A DNA stretch of 64,000 nucleotides, from contig NZ_QREV01000008.1 in assembly GCF_003363715.1 (NCBI RefSeq), positions 45,463 to 109,462 of the forward strand, written 5' to 3'. This document shows positions 23,146-60,210 of the stretch, piece by piece. The position numbers and the translations under genes were made by a program. Under the pieces are notes generated by a model. The model was not told the origin of the DNA. It saw only the letters and a list, made by a program, of their open reading frames with translations, and searched no databases. The stretch's first letter is position 1, and every line of letters begins with the position of its first letter. This stretch comes from Parabacteroides acidifaciens. GTDB lineage: Bacteria > Bacteroidota > Bacteroidia > Bacteroidales > Tannerellaceae.

Positions 23146-26100
23146 TTACGCGGTTTCAACCTCAGGTACTGAATCTATCGAATTGACAAATTTAACCAAT
23201 TGCGGATCTGAATCTTTTTGTATGAGGTTTCGGAGACTCTTTTTCAATTCATAAGCATCATCCCCTGCTGTATTTATTAAATCCATATAAAAATCTTTGT
23301 TTTGCAGAATCAATGAACGGCATGCCCCATCGGAAATTACAGGTTTCACTATTTTATCAATAACGTCTCCAGCTTGACTTTTCAAATTACCATGCGATCT
23401 AAGCCATGTTTCGAAAAATTGAAACTTTATTGCATTGATAGTCTTTTTACCGATGCAGAAATCATTTCTTATATCGGTAACTGTCGATTTAATTTTTCGT
23501 TTATCCAATCTTTCAACTATATTCTTGAAACAATTAGGGAAAGGATTCAAACTTTGAGTTCCAGAAGCAATATCCATCAGAATCTTTTTGCCAAATTCAG
23601 TCAAGTTATCTGGCAAGGATTTGATTTTAGCCAGTAAATGTTTTATTGCGACAAACCAATAATATGATGTATGTGCTGTTCTTTGGGCGTATAATGTATC
23701 AACACTTATTTCAGACAACGCTTCGAACGCTATTTTATTGATATGATCGGTCAGGACATTGCTTATTTTAGTGGTCAAATCGTAAAAAGATGCGTCAGGA
23801 ATTACATCTTTAATATTGTTCTTAGTGATATACTTATCCAAATCGGTATTCCACTCTGCTAAATGCTCGATAAATACCTCATCCGTTACACCTATTCTGT
23901 TCTTAATATCTTCAAATTGGGGCAATATGTCTGAGAGCAATAATTTATAGCCAAGTTTATGATTTACCATGTATTGTAGTGTTTCATTTAATAGCGGTAT
24001 ATTCCATCCCACACTATTTACTAATAAGTCTCCATGATCCACATAATAGTCCATGAGTTCTGCAACATATTTTATATCTCCACCCTCTATTAAGGAAACG
24101 GAATGACCATGTGCCAATTGCATGGCGACTAAATCGTAATATCCAGACTCTTTAATGTTTCGGCCATCAGTTTCTAATTCAGAATGCAACTGATTTATGT
24201 AGGTTGAATCTAACGTTACAGGTAAAGGTCTTTCTTCGTCAGATGCCAATAAACGATAGGTTGTAAATATAGCCCCTATATTATCTTTATTTACATTCTG
24301 TTCATCAATGCAATTCGTGATCGCTTGCAAAAGCGTTGGAAACGTATAGGTAGAATTATCTTTTAACGTTTTTACAATATCTGCATGGTCGAAATTATCG
24401 GGTAGTAAGTTTGCCAAATAATTATCGAGCGCCTCCGAATTTGTTGCTACTTGATAATATTTATATGCTTTAGTTGTCGCGTTATCCCGATAGGCAGCAT
24501 CTGTTGCATTTGCAGCTTGAATATAATCGATAAATGTATTTGGCTTGACTGTTTTTGCTTCAATCAATGACGTAAAATCGCACGCCAACTTATTTTGCGC
24601 AATAAACCTGTCTATTGCATCTAACGTTTTGAAATAGTCGCCGCCATTGAAGTCATTGAACCGAACTATCTTCTTATATAATTGAGCAATCACATGGTTT
24701 TGGCTTTCCGTGTCTAAATGCAACAGCAGTTCTTGGTATTCGACAGGGAACACCTGCTTCTCTATGGATTCTTTTAATTTCAATTGTGCTATTCTTTGCC
24801 ATACACGCAGAATAACATCGCTCTTTCGAGTTAATTTATGCAAACAATGTATAATCTTATCGATAAGCGCATTGTCCATACATTGTATAACTTCTTCTAA
24901 TACAGTGTCAAATTGTTTATTAGTCTCTGCATATTGATTTATGTCGTGGTCTTCTTCTCCGTTGATGCAGCCTTCAATATATTTTTTCAATGGAATTTGT
25001 CGAGCATCTTCAACATCGACACCATATACCAAAGCTGCAATTTCGCGTTGTGTTTGCAGATCATTGTTAATTATTGTTTGAATGCCATTCAGATAGTCGC
25101 CGGACAATATTTGTTCTACTGGATTTGCCAGAATATCCGTCTTCTTCAAACAGAACAATGCTATGTTTATCATCAAAATTTCGTTACACCACTCTTGTTT
25201 AAGAGCGACCATCTCATTGATATATGATATAATTTCCCTAACATTGGCATTAGGATTTACCAATCTGAATATCCGATTTATAGTTTCTTTCGCTTCATTT
25301 TCTGTTTCTCCAAATGCTTCAACAAACAGTTTGTTGAATATACTTCGATAGTCGGTAATAACAGGAGGAGCAACACGATAAACAATAGGGAAAGTTTTAT
25401 TGATAAAATACTTGGTCAGTTGTTTCGTTTGTTCGTCGGTCTCATCTCCGAATGCACAAGCTAAATGTGTTTCATCGAAAGGAATAACAGCCCAAACATT
25501 TTCAAAACCGCTATCGGCGAAGAACGTATGGATAGAAGACCATAATTCTTTTACTTTTTCAGCGGGGAGACGATCCATGTTGTCAAAAACAAGGACTAAT
25601 TTACGTTGTCCTTTTTCCTTGATAAAATCAGAAATGTCTTGCATCCATGTTTTGAACTCGTAAACCGTTGGTTCGTCTTCGCTCAAAGTCTCATAGCAAA
25701 CGTCCTTTTCGACTTTATCTTGATAAATAGCTAACATATAACTCCATCCATATTTATGATCTTTGCTATATGCCCATTTCCAAACGCACAATGCAATAAG
25801 AACTGGCAGTGCAGCTATGATAATAGACAATAAAGAAAACCACCATGTTGTGGGTGTAGGTTTTACTGCATACGCAATAAATGTAAATATCGGAGTTAAA
25901 ACTGCAACCAAAAATGCCGCAACCATACCATTACTGATAAGGGGATATTTTTCGGTTACGGTCTCCGTTTTACGGGCTAATAAATATTTCAGCTTTTCAG
26001 ACCATGATACGGTTTTCGTACCTCCACCTTTGACTTTTATTGTTGCATTTCCAGATAGGATACCATCATCAATAAGTTTGCTTGTAAGCAATTCCAATAT

Positions 26101-26400
26101 AGAGCGGCGTTGCAAGTCCTCTTGATGTCCCCATGCGTCATACTCAAAAAAGTAATAGTCGTCTGATAATTCACGTTCCAACATTTTAACCACGTTGGAT
26201 TTTCCAGATCCCCAAATACCTTCGATGCCGATAATTCGAGGTAAAGTACATTCCTCATCCAATGAATCATTCTGACAAAAATGGCGAGCAATAGTTTTTG
26301 CCAACCTTTCTTGCGAACCTCCATCGAATTTGTCAATACCACACGGTTTATTTTGGATAAACCGCGGATATTGCTGTTTGGATTGTAGTTTTGTTTCCAT
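23146..26400 (-). CDS. KAP-family P-loop NTPase
   Basis: 1084 residues. Walker A GIWGSGKSN near residues 63-70; two membrane helices (about 165-215, GMVAAFLVAVLTPIFTFIAY and FSLLSIIIAALPVLIALCVW) inserted in the ATPase domain; Walker B KLVLVFDNMDRLP near 270. This is the KAP layout (Kidins220/ARMS-PifA). The long helical C-terminus has no recognised motif. PifA-like KAP proteins act in phage exclusion, so a defence or exclusion role is plausible but unproven. It is AT-rich compared with mob/tra, and 16 bases downstream of the AAA gene; the two look like one cargo cassette. Confidence 0.85.
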   Translation of the reverse strand: METKLQSKQQYPRFIQNKPCGIDKFDGGSQERLAKTIARHFCQNDSLDEECTLPRIIGIEGIWGSGKSNVVKMLERELSDDYYFFEYDAWGHQEDLQRRSILELLTSKLIDDGILSGNATIKVKGGGTKTVSWSEKLKYLLARKTETVTEKYPLISNGMVAAFLVAVLTPIFTFIAYAVKPTPTTWWFSLLSIIIAALPVLIALCVWKWAYSKDHKYGWSYMLAIYQDKVEKDVCYETLSEDEPTVYEFKTWMQDISDFIKEKGQRKLVLVFDNMDRLPAEKVKELWSSIHTFFADSGFENVWAVIPFDETHLACAFGDETDEQTKQLTKYFINKTFPIVYRVAPPVITDYRSIFNKLFVEAFGETENEAKETINRIFRLVNPNANVREIISYINEMVALKQEWCNEILMINIALFCLKKTDILANPVEQILSGDYLNGIQTIINNDLQTQREIAALVYGVDVEDARQIPLKKYIEGCINGEEDHDINQYAETNKQFDTVLEEVIQCMDNALIDKIIHCLHKLTRKSDVILRVWQRIAQLKLKESIEKQVFPVEYQELLLHLDTESQNHVIAQLYKKIVRFNDFNGGDYFKTLDAIDRFIAQNKLACDFTSLIEAKTVKPNTFIDYIQAANATDAAYRDNATTKAYKYYQVATNSEALDNYLANLLPDNFDHADIVKTLKDNSTYTFPTLLQAITNCIDEQNVNKDNIGAIFTTYRLLASDEERPLPVTLDSTYINQLHSELETDGRNIKESGYYDLVAMQLAHGHSVSLIEGGDIKYVAELMDYYVDHGDLLVNSVGWNIPLLNETLQYMVNHKLGYKLLLSDILPQFEDIKNRIGVTDEVFIEHLAEWNTDLDKYITKNNIKDVIPDASFYDLTTKISNVLTDHINKIAFEALSEISVDTLYAQRTAHTSYYWFVAIKHLLAKIKSLPDNLTEFGKKILMDIASGTQSLNPFPNCFKNIVERLDKRKIKSTVTDIRNDFCIGKKTINAIKFQFFETWLRSHGNLKSQAGDVIDKIVKPVISDGACRSLILQNKDFYMDLINTAGDDAYELKKSLRNLIQKDSDPQLVKFVNSIDSVPEVETA

Positions 26401-27848: not shown

Positions 27849-28454
27849 TTATTTTCTCATCCGCTCCAACTCCTCATCACGCAACATTCTCTCGTTCAGT
27901 TTTTCCTGCATCCTGTCAATGAAATAGGTGCGGCTTTCGTTCTTCCGGCGTTTGATATCAGTGTAGAAGCGGTAGCAGTCTTTAGAATCAACCCCGAATA
28001 TCTTATAGAGAAGTGGGGCGAGCTGTTTGAGCGGCATATTGCCGTTGTTGATGCAGCCCATCACGTCTATGCCGTAGATAAGTTCCACGAGGTCGATGGC
28101 ATTGCCCGTCCATTGAAGAAGGCTGGCGGTGGTTTCTGTTGCGTTGTTGGCGGATATTAGTGGTGGCACTTGGGGCGTGGCAAGGAATTTCTGCATCTTT
28201 CTTACGAAAGACAGAGCCTTGCTGACGTAGGCGGCAATCTCTCTTTTTTCTTCTGACAGATTACGTACGGGATGGTGCTGCAACTCGATTTCGATGTAGG
28301 CAAGCGCGATGACGGTAAGGTTCATGTCCATGCCGCCGTTGCACAGTTCGATCACTTGGGTGGCGAAAGCCGTGTATGCCGTTTCCATATTGCAGTCGCC
28401 GGCTTCGTTTATCAGGCGGAAAAAGTCGGTTTCCGCCAGCAAGAAATAATTCAT
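27849..28454 (-). CDS. rteC: RteC, activator of excision
   Basis: 201 residues from ATG 28454 (MNYFLLAETDFFRLINEAG); the open frame to 28517 has a weaker start. Helical N-terminus and a C-terminal winged-helix-like region (PLKQLAPLLYKIFGVDSKDCYRFYTDIKRRKN...RTYFIDRMQEKLNERM) typical of RteC. In CTnDOT it is itself activated by RteB and binds upstream of the xis2c-xis2d-orf3-exc operon. The RibD-like gene separates it from rteB here. Confidence 0.87.
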   Translation of the reverse strand: MNYFLLAETDFFRLINEAGDCNMETAYTAFATQVIELCNGGMDMNLTVIALAYIEIELQHHPVRNLSEEKREIAAYVSKALSFVRKMQKFLATPQVPPLISANNATETTASLLQWTGNAIDLVELIYGIDVMGCINNGNMPLKQLAPLLYKIFGVDSKDCYRFYTDIKRRKNESRTYFIDRMQEKLNERMLRDEELERMRK

Positions 28455-28537
28455 GGTTCTGTCAATTTTGAAAATTACACTTTGTTTTCTGCGTGCGCAC
28501 ATGAATATAATTGGCAAAAAACGCGGCAGAAAATAAA

Positions 28538-28692: not shown

Positions 28693-29115
28693 CTATCTTG
28701 CTTTTTTATCAAGGATATAGATAATGCGACATACACCGTTGGGATAGCTTTTCAAAGAGGAAAGCGTCCAGTGTTGCTCTGGCAGAGCCGACTTAAAAAA
28801 ATGTCGTCCGCTTCCGGATATGAAAGGAACGGTGTATAGTATGATTTCATCCACAGCGTGCATCCGCAGCAGTCCGTTTATATAGTCTGCCGTGTCCGGT
28901 GTGGCTTCCGCGAGGTAACGGATGTTTGTGCAGTCTTTTCTCCATTCGTGCAGCATTGAAATGGAATAGTCCGGTGTCACACGGTAAAAGGCTTTCTTCC
29001 TGATTTCATCAAGACCGCAACGGTCAAGGCACAAATCCTGATGTGCTTTATCATATAACTCTGAAGAAAGACATCCGTCCATCGTCAGTACGGCGAGAAT
29101 CTGAACTTTACCCAT
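28693..29115 (-). CDS. RibD C-terminal / dihydrofolate-reductase-like protein
   Basis: 140 residues. It starts MGKVQILAVLTMDGCLSSE, like the first strand and loop of RibD-C/DHFR folds; DEIILYTVPFISGSGRHFF is the conserved C-terminal segment of that family. It is shorter than full DHFR (about 160-180). Substrate unknown; a reductase or resistance role is possible but not shown. AAAGGA precedes ATG 29115. It has its own promoter, long structured leader and terminator, so it is a separate unit from rteB. Confidence 0.72.
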   Translation of the reverse strand: MGKVQILAVLTMDGCLSSELYDKAHQDLCLDRCGLDEIRKKAFYRVTPDYSISMLHEWRKDCTNIRYLAEATPDTADYINGLLRMHAVDEIILYTVPFISGSGRHFFKSALPEQHWTLSSLKSYPNGVCRIIYILDKKAR

Positions 29116-29358
29116 AATCGTTTCCTTTCGTTAGGCAAGGGTAAAAAAGTAGCGTGCAATTCACACTACCTTCAAGCGATGGCTCTGGTAAAGCCTTTAC
29201 GGAGAGTACGTGAATGCACGCTATGCGTAAGCATAGCATAAGCATCACGCAATCGTCTCCGTAGTTCCAATTTACCAGATTTTCGCTTGAAACGCCTTGC
29301 GGTCTTATCCTATATGTTGGCGGCGAAAAGCTCCTGCCAATCGCCGTTTTTCTCAAAT
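29116..29358 (-). ncRNA. Long structured leader ahead of the RibD-like gene
   Basis: A single elongated hairpin spans 29171-29291: stems 29171-29179/29283-29291 (9 bp), 29184-29192/29271-29279 (9 bp), 29198-29205/29256-29263 (8 bp), 29209-29217/29242-29249 (8 bp with one bulge) and 29220-29226/29231-29237 (7 bp, four-base loop). It is followed by a terminator hairpin at 29149-29169 with a six-base U-run, then the start codon. This is the architecture of a riboswitch or attenuator. I do not recognise the class. Confidence 0.7.
29149..29169 (-). terminator. Leader terminator of the RibD-like gene
   Basis: GTAGCGTG (29149-29156) and CACACTAC (29162-29169) form an 8-bp stem (one G-U) with a five-base loop; on the minus strand TTTTTT follows (29148-29143). 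It lies 34 bases before the start codon, so it can turn the gene off. Confidence 0.75.
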
Positions 29359-29364
29359 GTTATG

Positions 29365-29372
29365 CAAAGATA
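29365..29372 (-). promoter_or_regulatory. Putative -7 box of the RibD-like unit
   Basis: TATCTTTG on the minus strand, 22 bases beyond the rteB stop; predicted start about 29358, giving a leader of about 243 bases. No matching -33 box is clear. Confidence 0.5.
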
Positions 29373-29394
29373 GCCAAATTCAGTGAATTACGGG

Positions 29395-30717
29395 CTATGA
29401 TTGCTTGAATTTATATTTAAGTCCATACTCTTCAAGTTTGCTGTATAGTGTTGTCCTGCCTATGCCGAGCAGTTCTGCGGCGACACTCCGGTTGCCGTTT
29501 GCCTGTTTCAACGCACGCAATATCCGCTCCTTATCCTCCGCGTCATTGCGCAAGGCGAAGCTGACAGTAGAGGTCGGTTTCGTCACGGCAAGTTCCAGAT
29601 GCTCTTTCATGACAACACCTTCCTGCGCCTGCAATACAGCACCCATAACTTTCTGCCGAAGTTCCCGCACGTTGCCCGGCCATGCGTGTGTCAGCAACGC
29701 TTTACGTGCTTCGGAACTGAACCCGCTCACGCTACACTCCAGCTCTCTGTTTGCCATATCACGGAAGAACTCTGCCAGCGGCATAATGTCTTCTTGACAG
29801 TCACGCAACGGAGGAACGGTTATCCCGAAGTCGTGCAGGCGGTACAGAAGATCCTGCCGAAAACGCTTTTCATTCACCGATACCTCCAAATCTTCATTGG
29901 TAGCAGCGATGATGCGGACATTGAAATTCCGGTCTGCCTTGTCTCCGACCGGGCGATACCGCCTCTCCTGTATGGCACGGAGCAACATCTGTTGGGTTTC
30001 CAACGCGAGGTTTCCTACCTCGTCCAGAAACAACGTGCCGCCTTCCGCCTCATGGAAATATCCTTTCTTGGCATTGTCCGCACCTGTAAATGCACCTTTG
30101 ACGTGTCCGAAGAAAGCCGACGGTGCAAGCTCTTTGGAGAGTGAACCGCAGTCCACCGCCACAAATGGCTTGCCTGCACGTTTGCTCTTGTCATGCAACA
30201 GGTGGGCAATATGCTCCTTGCCCGTGCCGTTCTCACCAAATATCATCACGCTCATATCGGTGGCGGCTACCAGCCTTATGCGGTGCATGATTTTCTGAAA
30301 GGCGGAACCTTCACGGGCGAATATAGGCATACGGCGTTGTCCTGCCTGACGTTCTTTCAGTATGGAACGGATCAGGGGGACAAGTTTATCCTCCACAAGC
30401 TGTTTGGGAATATAGTCTATCGAGCCGAGTTTCATGCTTTCCACGGCGGTATTAACTTCGGCGTAGTCGGTCATAATGATGAAGGGCTGCATCTTTCCCT
30501 CCTTTCGCATCCAGCACAAAAGGTCTATGCCACTGCCGTCAGGCAGACGCAGGTCGGCAACCACGATATCATTATCTGTTGCCTGTTGCAGATGTTTCTT
30601 CGCGGTTGAGAGGTGGTAAGCCTTCATATTGCGGTAGCCCTCCCGTGACAGCATATTGCAGACATATTCGCAATACACGATGTTGTCTTCCACCACAATT
30701 ATTTTTGTCTTATTCAT
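29395..30717 (-). CDS. rteB: RteB, sigma-54-type response regulator
   Basis: 440 residues. Receiver domain with phospho-acceptor Asp in VVADLRLPDGSG near residue 56; AAA domain with Walker A GENGTGKEH near 162, GAFTGA loop, and EGGTLFLDEVGNL; Fis-type HTH at the C-terminus (GNRSVAAELLGIGRTTLYSKLEEYG). It is the response regulator partner of RteA and activates rteC. It overlaps rteA by eight bases. A sigma-54-type activator in Bacteroides is characteristic of this locus. Confidence 0.93.
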   Translation of the reverse strand: MNKTKIIVVEDNIVYCEYVCNMLSREGYRNMKAYHLSTAKKHLQQATDNDIVVADLRLPDGSGIDLLCWMRKEGKMQPFIIMTDYAEVNTAVESMKLGSIDYIPKQLVEDKLVPLIRSILKERQAGQRRMPIFAREGSAFQKIMHRIRLVAATDMSVMIFGENGTGKEHIAHLLHDKSKRAGKPFVAVDCGSLSKELAPSAFFGHVKGAFTGADNAKKGYFHEAEGGTLFLDEVGNLALETQQMLLRAIQERRYRPVGDKADRNFNVRIIAATNEDLEVSVNEKRFRQDLLYRLHDFGITVPPLRDCQEDIMPLAEFFRDMANRELECSVSGFSSEARKALLTHAWPGNVRELRQKVMGAVLQAQEGVVMKEHLELAVTKPTSTVSFALRNDAEDKERILRALKQANGNRSVAAELLGIGRTTLYSKLEEYGLKYKFKQS

Positions 30718-33028
30718 CTTCGTATTTTCTCCTTTCCTCTTCTGCCAACCGTATTATTTCCACTCCCTTATCCAGCACGGCAGTCACGGCATGGCTTAAC
30801 GCTTCACCATCCGGGAGAGCATCGCCACGAAGCAATCCGTAAAGTACATTCAGCGGTTGGTCGGCACGGAGCACCTCCCACGAACTGCGCAGGTGGTGGA
30901 TCAGGGAATCCAGCTTTTGCAGGTCTTTTTCTTTTGCTGCATCCCGTACCGCCTGCATTTCCTTTTCTGTTTCAGTTATCAACTTTTCCAGCATGACGGC
31001 TTCATTGCCATAGGACAATAAGGCGGAAAAGTCCGGTTTCCCGTCCGGTGTCGCTTTTATGGCACACCTGTCGGAAACCTCCATCAGTTCCGATATGGAG
31101 AACGGTTTGAACAGGCATCCGGCAAAGCCTTTTGCCAATAGTTCCCCTTTGTTACAACTGCCCGAAGCGGTTGCCACAACCACCGGGATTGTTGGTGAAT
31201 TGCCCACGTTGGACGAACGCAACAGTTCCAGCAATTCGAAACCGTTTATATCGGGCATATTCAAGTCTGTCAGCAACAGGCTGTATTCTTTCTGGCGTAT
31301 CATTTCCATCAGTGCCGCAGCATCGGTGCAAGTGTCGCAGTGTATTCCTTCTTGGGAATACATCTCTTTCAGCATCAGAAGTAATACCTCATCATTGTCA
31401 ATGGCGACAACATCATGGAATTTATTGTTATGATAAACAGGTGTATTGCTTGTATATCCAAGCTGTTCTTCAGCTTCCTGCATAGAAATTTCAACTGTGA
31501 AACGACTGCCTTTCCCTTTCTTGCTGTCTAAACGGATTGTTCCGCCAAGCATCGACACAATATTACGCATTATGGCAAGCCCAAGCCCGAAACCCTCCTT
31601 TGCGGCGGCATTTGATAGACGTTCAAACGCACCGAACGCTTGTTTCTGTTCCTCTTCTGTCATGCCTGTACCTGTATCTTCAACGACCAGTGTCAGAACT
31701 CCATTATCATATTCAGTAATCAAAGAAACACCGCCTTCTTCTGTGAACTTGACAGCGTTTGACAGCAGGTTATTCCCGATTTGTATTATTCGCTCTTTGT
31801 CGGTCAATACAATGGCATCGTGTCCAGTCTTCACGGACAAGGACAGCCCTTTGTTCACGGCAACAGGCATGAACTCCGTTTCAAGTGTGTGCGTGATTGC
31901 TGAAATCCGGCAGGGTGACAGACGGGGCTGTTCCTTGCCGTTGTCCAGGCGGAAGAAGTCAAGCAAAGTGTTAAGCATATCCCGCATACGGTCGGAGGAT
32001 TGCAGTATGTTTTGGATATACTGCCCGGACTTATCCTCACACTGTTCTTTCCGTATCAGTCCGGCATAGCCTGTTATTGCTGTCAGCGGTGTGCGCAGTT
32101 CATGGGTGATAGTATGTACCGCCTTCTTCCTTGACGTTATCAGTGCCTCGTTCCGTTGTACGGATTGTTCCAGTTGCCTTATCAAATCAGTTGTCTTGTG
32201 CTTGTATTGTTTAATGCTTTTTGCATCACGATGTATGATGATGTAGGAAATTAACAACAATAGAAGAACGAATCCCATTAAACCGCCTACTTGCATAAAT
32301 GACTTTTCACGCATGGCAACTATTTCGTTTTCCCGGCTTTGCAGTTCGGTTTGTACCTTTTCTTCTATTTGGCAAATCAATTCTTGCAGTTGTCTGTTAA
32401 GTTCTGCATTACGAGCTGCAAGGCTGTCGGCTTGTTCCGACAATTGGCGATCCTGCACTTTCTGTTCGCTGATTACGTTTCTATTGACCGAATGAAGGAT
32501 AGTGGTTGATACTGCTGGAGTTACTTCCTTTTTTTTGCCGAATATGCCTAAGAAACCTTTTCGTTTTGGCTTTTTGGACTGTTCCTGCACACTTTTCTGT
32601 ACAATAACCGGAATTTGATTGGCTATCTTCTTGTTAATAGATTGTTGTTCATCCATTAACCGGACTATCTGGAACATCTGTCGTTCCTTATCCTCTAAAA
32701 GACTGCGCACACTATCGATGCGCTCTGCTGGATAGGTGGCCTTGAAACGGCAGAGCATACTGTCCATTGCCATACGCCGTGCATGGTAATGCTCGATATC
32801 TTTATCGTTCCATTCCAGTATTGTTTCACCCAATAGAGAAAATTTTATCATTTGAATATTGATATTGTTTATTTCTTTTCGGAGCTCGTCTATTTTTTTA
32901 TTGCCAAGTTCTAATGCTTCTATCTCCTGCCATTCATAGAGGCTATTATATGCCATACATCCGATAAGAATGGAGATAAGTATATATCCCAACCGTATTG
33001 CCTTATAGAAATTTCCTGACCGCTCCAT
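30710..33028 (-). CDS. rteA: RteA, hybrid sensor histidine kinase
   Basis: 772 residues. Two membrane helices (about 10-28 and 250-265) flank a periplasmic coiled-coil sensor. HisKA box THELRTPLTAITGY near 309, then NLLSNAVKF, DTGTGM and GFGLGLAI of the ATPase domain. A receiver domain (LLLTDLNMPDINGF, Asp near 588) and a C-terminal HPt domain (LIHHLRSSW, His near 711) complete a four-step phosphorelay to RteB. Its ATG overlaps the tetQ stop (TAATG), so tetracycline induction of tetQ raises rteA and rteB. Confidence 0.93.
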   Translation of the reverse strand: MERSGNFYKAIRLGYILISILIGCMAYNSLYEWQEIEALELGNKKIDELRKEINNINIQMIKFSLLGETILEWNDKDIEHYHARRMAMDSMLCRFKATYPAERIDSVRSLLEDKERQMFQIVRLMDEQQSINKKIANQIPVIVQKSVQEQSKKPKRKGFLGIFGKKKEVTPAVSTTILHSVNRNVISEQKVQDRQLSEQADSLAARNAELNRQLQELICQIEEKVQTELQSRENEIVAMREKSFMQVGGLMGFVLLLLLISYIIIHRDAKSIKQYKHKTTDLIRQLEQSVQRNEALITSRKKAVHTITHELRTPLTAITGYAGLIRKEQCEDKSGQYIQNILQSSDRMRDMLNTLLDFFRLDNGKEQPRLSPCRISAITHTLETEFMPVAVNKGLSLSVKTGHDAIVLTDKERIIQIGNNLLSNAVKFTEEGGVSLITEYDNGVLTLVVEDTGTGMTEEEQKQAFGAFERLSNAAAKEGFGLGLAIMRNIVSMLGGTIRLDSKKGKGSRFTVEISMQEAEEQLGYTSNTPVYHNNKFHDVVAIDNDEVLLLMLKEMYSQEGIHCDTCTDAAALMEMIRQKEYSLLLTDLNMPDINGFELLELLRSSNVGNSPTIPVVVATASGSCNKGELLAKGFAGCLFKPFSISELMEVSDRCAIKATPDGKPDFSALLSYGNEAVMLEKLITETEKEMQAVRDAAKEKDLQKLDSLIHHLRSSWEVLRADQPLNVLYGLLRGDALPDGEALSHAVTAVLDKGVEIIRLAEEERRKYEDE

Positions 33029-34953
33029 TATTTTAATGACATTGATTTTTGGAACATGAATAAAAGTTTATCTTTTTCGTTCATGCGGATATTATCAGAA
33101 TAACCGTCTTTTGTTATTTGATACCCACATGGCTTAACCATAAAAATGCCTAAGCCCTTAGTGTACGAACTTACTTCTGAGGCATAGTCTTTACTTGTAT
33201 TTAATGGAACTTTCCCTTTAATATGACACCACTCATTATTACAACTGATGTCTTCAATCTCAGACATCAGTTTTTGCAAATCTGTAATAGCTTTGGAACT
33301 CGCTACTTGGGGTATCTGCAACTCAAAACAGAGCATCGGTTCGAGAATGTCCACACCTGACTGTTGCAAAGCCAGCCTGAAGACATAAGGGGTCAGCTGT
33401 CTGAAATCAGCAGGTGTACTTACCGGGCTATAATACTCGGCTTGAGTAAAAGTTACTTTCAGATCTGTCACTTCCCATCCATGTAAACCAGATTGGCAAG
33501 ACATACGAATCCCTTCAAAAACGGCATTTTGAAAAGAATGGTTCAGATAACCATAGGAGATGTCACTTTCGATTTGCAACCCTGCCCCTAACGGTAAGGG
33601 TTCAAGAGTCAGCCCTATTGTGGCCCAGTAAGGGTTGGGTGGTACTTCGATCTGAATAATCTTATTGACCTTTTTTATAGGTCGTTCTTTGTAGATAGTC
33701 TTGATCTCATCAAAATGGACCTTTACGGAAAATCGTTCTTCCAGCAATGTCTGTATGATTTCCTTTTGGGTCAAACCATATAACGAGATTTCCAATTCAT
33801 CACTATATGAGTTTATGGAAAAGGACAAAGACGGGTCTTCAATCCACAATGTATTCAGAGCGGATATCACCTTGCTTCTCTCTTCGGGCTTATTTGGCCG
33901 GACGGAGGATTTGAGAGCGGGATGCTGATGAGATAATCCTTGAATCAAACAAGGTTTAGCACCTAAATAATCTCCGATTCGAAAATCTTCTATATCTTCT
34001 ACAATCGCGATATCATTGGCACCCACTTCATCAACATTTATCTCTCTGCCCTGATAAATAGTCTTTAGATTTTTAATCTTGATGAATTTTTCCGAATCGT
34101 TGATTCTTACAACGTCTCGAAGTCTCAGACTTCCGTCAATTATTTTAAGAAAACTTCTTTTATGCCCTTTGGGGTCATGCTCTATCTTATAGAGATAAGC
34201 TGAAAGTCTGTTTGAGACTGATGCCGGAGGAAGTATAAAAGAAGAAATGGCGTCCAACAACTCATTGATACCGATATTGAACATTGCTGATCCATGTAGC
34301 ACCGGATAGACTTTGGCTTTTGCCACAAGAGCGATTATCGTATTCCAATAATCAGCCGGTGAAATTTCGCTATCCGCCAAATATCGTTCTAATATATCGT
34401 CGTCATGGTTGCATACAAATTCTTTGTATTCTTCCTTTATATATGTTTGGGAGCAAACCGGATAAACCGATCCATCGACAACAGTTTGCATAAACAGGAC
34501 ATCTTGCGACAGATTTGTTTTTATATCCATATACAAACGCTCCAAATTCACACCGGCACGGTCAATCTTATTGATAAATATAATTGTCGGGATTTGCAGC
34601 TTTTGTAAAGTACTGAACAGCAACTTTGTCTGCGCTTGTATGCCTTCCTTTGCGGATAAGATGAGGACTGCTCCATCAAGCATTTTGAATGTCCGCTCCA
34701 CTTCCGCAATAAAATCCATGTGTCCCGGAGTGTCAATGATATTGCATTTCACTCCATTCCAGATAATAGATGTCGTAGAAGCCCGGACAGTAATTCCTCT
34801 ACGTTTCTCTATATCCATAGAGTCCGTTATGGTGTCACCATTATCCACACGGCCGCACTTTTCCGTTGCTCCACTGGCAAACAGCAGATTCTCGGTTACG
34901 GAAGTTTTTCCTGCATCAATGTGAGCAAGAATTCCTAAATTTATAATATTCAT
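33028..34953 (-). CDS. tetQ: TetQ, ribosomal protection tetracycline-resistance protein
   Basis: 641 residues from ATG 34953 ([18 protein letters not shown]), the usual TetQ start. GTPase motifs [22 protein letters not shown] and INKID are all present, followed by EF-G-like domains. TetQ displaces tetracycline from the ribosome. A GTG at 35001 in frame would add 16 residues and has AGGAGG nine bases upstream, so an alternative start or leader translation is possible. It is the first gene of tetQ-rteA-rteB. Confidence 0.97.
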
Positions 34954-35082
34954 TTGGATTAAGCAATAATATACTACAGTAGATGCATTGTCGAAACGCA
35001 CCTTTTAATACCTCCTCGTAGCATATGAGAACTACAGGATTACTAACTCGTATTAATATGTATATTATTACTGCCGCATAAC
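34954..35082 (-). promoter_or_regulatory. tetQ leader (translational attenuator)
   Basis: About 130 bases between the predicted transcript start and the tetQ ATG. It includes AGGAGG near 35013-35018, the in-frame GTG 35001, and several short complementary stretches. In CTnDOT the equivalent leader mediates tetracycline-induced translation of tetQ; I did not derive the pairing scheme here. Confidence 0.6.
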
Positions 35083-60067: not shown

Positions 60068-60085
60068 CTTATTACTTTTGCCGTT

Positions 60086-60190
60086 GAAACAGGTTTCGTT
60101 ATCCTTTTCAGGATAAGGATTAAAAGGGAACCGGGTGGGAATCCCGGACAGACCACGCGTTCCCGTGGGGTAGGATAAGACTTGTCGGCA
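60086..60190 (+). promoter_or_regulatory. Cobalamin riboswitch
   Basis: Core elements are recognisable: GGTTTC near 60092, TTAAAAGGGAA near 60119-60129, CCGGGTGGGAATCCCGG near 60130-60146, CAGACCACGC, then GGGTAGGATAAGACTTGTC, which replaces the usual B12 box. Compact, like Bacteroidetes variants. A TACTTTTG -7 box at 60073-60080 sets the transcript start near 60086. It should repress the importer when cobalamin is high. Subclass and edges uncertain. Confidence 0.8.
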
Positions 60191-60210
60191 AGAAATAAAA
60201 TAAATTGAAT

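Follow-up and report, generated by a model that had tools for sequence, protein, structure and literature searches.

A structured leader RNA ahead of a RibD-like gene in a CTnDOT-type element: a candidate strand-exchange attenuator from a Bacteroidota-wide class

We describe an element which is probably the 5' mRNA leader of its downstream gene and part of a Bacteroidota-wide class of cis-regulatory RNAs absent from Rfam that would act as a strand-exchange transcription attenuator. The assignment as a leader RNA and as a member of a class is well supported by the comparison of related sequences, and the attenuator function is an inference of moderate strength. RNA-based gene control in Bacteroidota is poorly mapped. 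Coordinates below refer to the window, i.e., the whole stretch of 64,000 nucleotides that was analysed.

The leader and its genomic context

All described parts are located on the minus strand, and their coordinates were checked letter by letter (Table 1). In the direction of transcription, the leader follows genes for a tetQ-like GTPase, an rteA-like kinase and an rteB-like regulator and precedes a RibD_C-like and an rteC-like gene. The region from tetQ to rteC is the central regulatory region of a CTnDOT-type conjugative element. The RibD-like gene is annotated as "dihydrofolate reductase family protein" in plasmid records, and its match to the RibD_C domain is borderline (24.3 bits at a cut-off of 24.1). 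Because this gene has its own terminator before rteC, expression of rteC need not depend on the leader. Further downstream of rteC, a KAP-family P-loop NTPase of 1084 aa (23146-26400, minus strand) is encoded beside an AAA_14/DUF4143 protein.

The leader starts behind a promoter box that we take to be the -7 box of the Bacteroidota type. If transcription begins near 29358, as the position of this box suggests, the leader would comprise approximately 216 nt up to the U-tract. The perfect palindrome upstream of the box is identical in L015 and L008 and imperfect in L007 and L009; it is possibly a regulator site, only partly kept in the relatives. The main structural domain is a rod of five helical segments, P1 (8 bp), P2 (9 bp), P3 (8 bp), P4 (about 8 bp with a bulge) and P5 (9 bp), separated by internal loops with the conserved by-eye consensus GAAAnCUGGnAAnUUU / GGGnnUnCCAGnnCCUC. 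Its minimum free energy is -58.2 kcal/mol (z = -9.28), and none of 200 shuffled sequences folded equally well; the z-score of the whole leader is -7.17. Between the stem of the local terminator and the ATG there are 33 nt.

A sequence-only reading of this DNA had named a promoter box, a five-segment hairpin of 121 bases with internal loops, a separate terminator 34 bases before the start codon, and a reductase-like gene with its own terminator. We recover each of these parts, the spacing being one base shorter. A simple consensus scan flagged neither of the two minus-strand terminators nor the leader promoter, which may be explained by its loop limit and its sigma-70 model.

Table 1. Features of the leader and of the neighbouring genes in the window
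Feature	Position	Strand	Remarks
tetQ-like GTPase	33028-35001	-	tet(Q) is the annotation in plasmid records
rteA-like kinase	30710-33028	-	named by order and domains
rteB-like response regulator	29395..30717	-	Pfam domains; named by order and domains
Palindrome AATTCACTGAATT	29377..29389	-	perfect, just upstream of the -7 box; letters checked
-7 promoter box TATCTTTG	29372-29365	-	letters checked
5' hairpin H0	29321..29346	-	sequence varies among relatives
H1, short hairpin region with GCAA	29293..29304	-	CGCAA (29301-29297) can pair with TTGCG (29252-29248)
Rod P1-P5, 121 nt	29291-29171	-	fold z-score, covariation
Apical 3' strand TAGCGTGCA	29215..29223	-	perfectly complementary to the tail
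Local intrinsic terminator, stem GTAGTGTG-loop-CACGCTAC	29169-29149 (whole 29143..29169)	-	TTTTTT at 29148-29143
Tail TGCACGCTA	29150..29158	-	3' arm directly before the U-tract; complementary to the apical 3' strand
RibD_C/DHFR-like gene, 140 aa	28693..29115	-	ATG at 29115; Pfam PF01872, plasmid-record annotation
Terminator behind the RibD-like gene, before rteC	28573-28537	-	-17.3 kcal/mol, z = -4.78
rteC-like gene	27849..28517	-	Pfam RteC, 91 bits

Covariation, distribution and relation to known RNAs

The sequence-only reading had asked for a search for covariation, and the homologous leaders indeed carry abundant compensatory changes in the rod. Among nine sequences, both sides were changed in 17 of 49 pairs. 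With 36 sequences this number rose to 41 of 49, and 95.3% of the cells were paired; 351 double-change cells were counted, against 88.6 after shuffling, and slid controls reached 29-46%. This set represents 36 of 46 sources; seven near-identical, cut-off or odd-length matches were left out. In 101 sequences, 92.5% of the pair cells remained paired, and double changes numbered 1344 (387 after shuffling). A larger collection used 142 loci and omitted near-duplicates together with some further loci (such as L105, L106, L108, L112, L114 and L117). In addition, 60 stretches were picked by hand from match lists and are not a random sample. The clade of the window alone, with 42 distinct sequences from named genomes, gave 94.6% paired cells and 249 double changes (64.5 shuffled), its apical helix being invariant since the loci had been chosen by it. 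All alignments were fitted to the model and thus favour its pairs, yet with slid partners the values drop to 28-48%.

Within P1-P5, the ratio of G-U to A-C cells was 154:11 in the 36 sequences (alignment A4) and 167:30, 389:54 and 135:31 in alignments A9, A5 and A6. Such an excess of G-U is expected for an RNA of the transcribed strand, and together with the double changes it shows a covarying secondary structure on this strand. It also bears on the idea of a palindromic DNA element, be it a mobile repeat, a recombination site or a binding site. Such an element would suit the long inverted repeat, its many copies per genome and its location on a mobile element, but it does not fit G-U cells so far above the A-C mismatches (154 against 11), nor a promoter and a gene that both give the element a direction. 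We consider it hardly credible.

The leader was found by DNA search in 13 of 393 Bacteroidales genomes, at identities down to 74% except for two short matches of 41 bits, one of which (L014) is a real relative; the other (L013) was left out. A covariance model, R1, built from nine leader sequences, gave matches (E <= 0.01) in 62 of these 393 genomes and in 25 of the 38 genomes of the window's genus, tallies which include low-scoring matches (about 26-45 bits); our conclusions never rest on these alone. As a near-palindrome, the RNA also gives a score on its own reverse strand, 22.7 bits with a second model, R2. Some rows of the R1 tallies are reverse-strand matches, and the reverse match of L007 was removed by a tighter E-value. 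At E <= 1e-4, 47 of 345 Bacteroidota genomes have R2 matches, and 12 of these 47 do not belong to the taxonomic class of the window. As a background, 754 kb of viral DNA (80 loci) yielded two R2 matches at E <= 1, both at the 15-base motif that had been used to select the loci.

A single genome holds up to 20 matches (among 16 genomes chosen for having matches), and members of the class stand before genes for TonB receptors, sigma factors and surface proteins as well as before genes of mobile elements. The class would thus be among the larger regulatory RNA classes of the phylum, and since it is absent from Rfam, annotation based on Rfam misses it. Among the matches listed, the clade of the window occurs in Bacteroides, Phocaeicola, Parabacteroides (including Parabacteroides chinchillae, L270), Prevotella, Muribaculaceae, Alistipes, Riemerella columbina and others. 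The genome of the window carries two more copies, G000:C115:20679-20899 (L018) and G000:C112:106216-106436 (L019), each of 221 nt with a longer apex. Both are located 95 nt before a protein starting with MIMNKRFSTLL (at least 468 aa, the frames being cut by the locus ends), and the two proteins are near-identical over the first 90 residues compared.

Several observations accompany this distribution. Pairs similar to L018 and L019 are present in further genomes of the window's genus (L117, L129, L136 and L139). RNAs of the window's clade were also seen, among the matches listed, on contigs binned as Sporosarcina, Clostridia, Lachnospiraceae and Gastranaerophilales (L218, L221, L268 and L274), which would reflect either misbinning or transfer between phyla. 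The apical pattern of the clade is present on three viral contigs, and possible weak members were found on contigs of a viral collection at L335:10121-10253 (44.2 bits) and L407:4239-4385 (41.3 bits).

Comparison of the window with Rfam 15 at the gathering thresholds returned a Cobalamin riboswitch alone (60080-60203, plus strand, 39.7 bits) and nothing at the leader. In a permissive comparison the leader region had no match up to E = 5, and for 36 other loci no match at or above threshold overlapped the RNA; overlaps far below threshold were Six3os1_3 in L037 (21.6 bits, threshold 40) and, on the other strand, EGFOA-assoc-1 in L060 (19.8 bits, threshold 224.5). The Rfam comparisons at both settings rule out a known riboswitch or sRNA, and the earlier impression that the leader fits no familiar riboswitch class is borne out. 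At L109:1441-1476 (minus strand), a match to the DUF805b RNA (37.1 bits, gathering threshold 35.6) is located about 25 nt behind the leader and before the next gene.

Five families listed with Rfam numbers in the part of PMC2864571 considered here, 6S-Flavo, Bacteroidales-1, Bacteroides-1, Flavo-1 and Bacteroid-trp, are likewise structured RNAs of Bacteroidetes. They differ in that none of them matches the leader of the window (up to E = 5) or the 36 other loci. Bacteroides-2 and GUCCY-hairpin have no Rfam number in the table of the same paper and hence lie outside the Rfam comparison. In the open literature on rteC/CTnDOT leaders or sRNAs, on structured RNAs of Bacteroidetes and on orphan riboswitches, the class is not described in the portions covered. 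A description is absent from the portions considered of PMC1976400, PMC8040213, PMC2864571, PMC7366714 and PMC6429828, and term searches of PMC11109978 and PMC8632094 matched no term. Fremin and Bhatt 2021 (PMC8040213), in the portion considered, report the palindromic Bacteroidetes candidates HMP2_4205 and HMP2_1032, which resemble the leaders, by description only, in being structured RNAs of Bacteroidetes with predicted terminators, one of them near TonB. On this description, it is possible that the class was listed before without a name. RteR of CTnDOT is also an RNA regulator on the same kind of element. According to the portion of PMC7366714 considered, it is a trans-encoded sRNA of 90 nt acting on the tra operon; this description sets it apart from the leader, which would have approximately 216 nt up to the U-tract, is located between rteB and the RibD-like gene and apparently acts in cis.

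Downstream genes and promoter

The context was evaluated for 139 distinct members, 136 of which have at least 1.2 kb of downstream sequence. In 126 of 135 cases, the first gene downstream is co-directional with the RNA, at a median distance of 74.5 nt; in nine it is opposite, and one locus has no gene. On the upstream side, 69 of 128 genes are co-directional and 59 opposite. This conserved position before a co-directional gene marks a cis-acting leader RNA. In the 90-nt stretch upstream, 106 of 137 members have the motif TA..TTTG; when the same stretch is read as its reverse complement, the motif is present in 9 of 137.

An own promoter and a U-tract could also belong to a structured small RNA that mainly stands alone and has its 3' end at the U-tract, its downstream genes being incidental or reached only by readthrough. 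L010, where the downstream gene is convergent, and L012, where the next gene is 354 nt off, would agree with this. The short distance and the orientation bias on the downstream side only speak against it, and in at least two of the nine opposite cases the ORF caller was wrong, since a RibD-like frame starts at the RNA end in L014 and right behind the RNA in L076. We therefore regard a small RNA as unlikely. The ORF caller skips frames that overlap the RNA, and RibD was missed in this way in L009, L014 and L076; the tblastn count for the window's clade given below is free of this fault.

The downstream genes are of many kinds. Pfam domains were assigned to 108 of 120 downstream proteins and comprise RibD_C (22), TonB plug (15), sigma-70 regions (6) and DHFR_1 (6), the remainder of the 67 families (25 of them shown in the tally) having smaller counts; surface proteins and genes of mobile elements are found as well. 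The clade of the window was counted with 81 matches in 80 named loci. Of these matches, 75 either show a RibD-like gene behind them or have 700 nt or more of downstream sequence, and in 68 of the 75 the gene is present; the six remaining matches are cut. Likewise, 77 either show an rteB-like gene or extend 600 nt or more upstream, and 68 of the 77 have this gene directly before the leader, the four remaining ones being cut. L010 and L012, as well as five leaders from this count, follow an RteB-like gene and have no RibD behind them.

The sequence-only reading had seen a structured leader that controls a RibD/DHFR-like gene. The leader and a terminator before such a gene stand; specificity for RibD does not, as TonB receptors, sigma factors and surface proteins follow in other members. 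A RibD-specific sensor is ruled out by the varied gene contexts and by leaders such as L010 and L012. The same reading had suggested an attenuator that senses a ligand or an antibiotic; downstream genes as varied as these speak against a sensor specific for folates or antibiotics. For a riboswitch, the contexts are too varied to point at a ligand. Conversely, 30 RibD-like loci split into 15 with a leader (E <= 0.01) and 15 where it is absent, in a ranking biased by a profile made from leader-linked proteins; thus the RNA marks one clade of RibD-like genes. The proteins occur in a short form of about 138 aa, which lacks the middle part and was seen behind RteB-like regulators, and in a long form of about 176 aa.

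In L077, L081, L093, L145, L154 and similar loci, the RNA is located about 200-310 nt ahead of proteins with the common start MNxFSFYKxGKALYCLF. These proteins are probably among the TonB-plug matches, and the long gap may hold another element.

Alternative pairings and the proposed strand exchange

The 3' strand of the apical stem is complementary to the tail before the U-tract, and this relation is retained while the letters change: the window pairs TAGCGTGCA with TGCACGCTA, L010 and L012 have ...GCT/AGC... and L014 has ...GG/CC.... For 134 distinct members (143 rows minus four without a U-tract and five identical ones), the duplex of the two strands has an energy of -14.14 kcal/mol with the own partner and -11.21 kcal/mol with permuted partners; none of 2000 permutations was as good, in a test that ignores relatedness among the members. 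Four control pairings gave null results in the permutation test: apical 5' strand with tail, H1 with tail, the strand 5' of the apex with tail, and H1 with the apical 3' strand. In non-overlapping pairs of close relatives, the tail pairing was better in 17, worse in 4 and tied in 16 at 75% identity or more, and 32, 10 and 19 at 60% or more. The close-pair test is noisy, because the control H1 with apical 3' strand gave 12 to 4 at the higher level (20 to 19 at the lower); the other controls were even or opposite. These data show a mutually exclusive alternative pairing that covaries, more weakly than the rod.

In the window, an intrinsic terminator is present between the structure and the gene; across the class, only the U-tract is general. 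At least six T in eight positions follow the tail in 124 of 136 members, the U-tract being missing by pattern in 3 of 139 distinct members. The local hairpin attains -3 kcal/mol or better in 52 of 136 and stays weaker in the other 84, and the duplex of tail and apical strand lies below -8 kcal/mol in 129 of 136. The helix of tail and apical strand abuts the U-tract and most members, for example those of the L077 type, are without a useful local hairpin; we therefore take this helix as the putative terminator stem in the majority of members. The exchange would proceed between two states, one in which the apical stem retains its own 3' strand and one in which this strand is bound by the tail. 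Loops of this length are unusual for a terminator, and the architecture raises the question whether the apex of a distant hairpin can provide a terminator stem.

The clade of the window has added a strong local terminator. For its RNA, the minimum free energy state comprises the rod and the local terminator (-87.9 kcal/mol); forcing the tail pairing without pseudoknots gives -67.3 kcal/mol, a cost of about 21 kcal/mol. Because of this cost, the exchanged state must be kinetic, pseudoknotted or helped. Since the minimum free energy state contains the local terminator, the default would probably be a stop before RibD, and readthrough would require that the tail is bound elsewhere. The signal, which may be a small molecule, a protein or an RNA, would be recognised by binding to the conserved internal loops. 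Transcription-attenuating riboswitches and other leaders with intrinsic terminators share with the class the promoter, the structured 5' leader, mutually exclusive pairings, the U-tract and a gene close behind. The class differs from such riboswitches in that no ligand is assigned and that the terminator stem of most members would come from the apex of the structured domain, not from a local hairpin.

Two further readings have to be weighed against this attenuator. The most common trait of the class is a stable rod close to the 5' end; with such varied downstream genes it might simply be a constitutive stabiliser or translation enhancer of the mRNA that does not switch. A stabiliser has no need of a conserved U-tract right behind a covarying alternative pairing, which makes this quite improbable in our view. 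Attenuation by a translated leader peptide, e.g., in response to ribosome-targeting antibiotics, would draw on the adjoining tetQ-like gene, rteA and rteB and on the existence of mutually exclusive pairings. The tetQ leader of CTnDOT, from the same operon region, likewise exerts leader-based control, by translational attenuation with a leader peptide. Unlike it, the class has no excess of short ORFs: frames of at least five codons occur in 103 of 139 leaders, where 118.7 are expected from shuffles (presence was counted, not sequence conservation). This count rules out an antibiotic leader peptide as the general mechanism, relatives precede genes unrelated to antibiotics, and we give peptide-mediated control very little credence, even less than a stabiliser.

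Returning to strand exchange, H1 probably pairs with the strand 5' of the apical stem, with weaker signals than the tail pairing. The energy is -8.70 kcal/mol against -6.44 kcal/mol for permuted partners (0 of 2000 as good). A helix of at least five pairs forms in 135 of 139 members, where 124.3 are expected from permuted partners; the signal thus lies in the helix score (15.47 against 13.05) and in the position, since in 64 of 139 members the start of the pairing falls within three neighbouring positions, against 29 with shifted partners. Close pairs were better in 8, worse in 8 and tied in 21 at 75% identity or more, which gives the pairing no support, and 24, 12 and 23 at 60% or more, a moderate support. 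From this, a broader picture may be drawn tentatively, and we hold it with less than even confidence: a phylum-wide, multi-copy switch with a non-local terminator stem, in which the tail takes one apical strand and H1 can take the opposite one, the two flanks of P1 thus competing for the strands of the apex, and which conjugative elements would have captured for the RibD-like gene, adding the local terminator. In L155, L061 and L129, the complementarity of H1 extends to 14, 12 and 11 pairs (with G-U counted) and may continue into the 5' strand of P4, suggesting a second point of switching.
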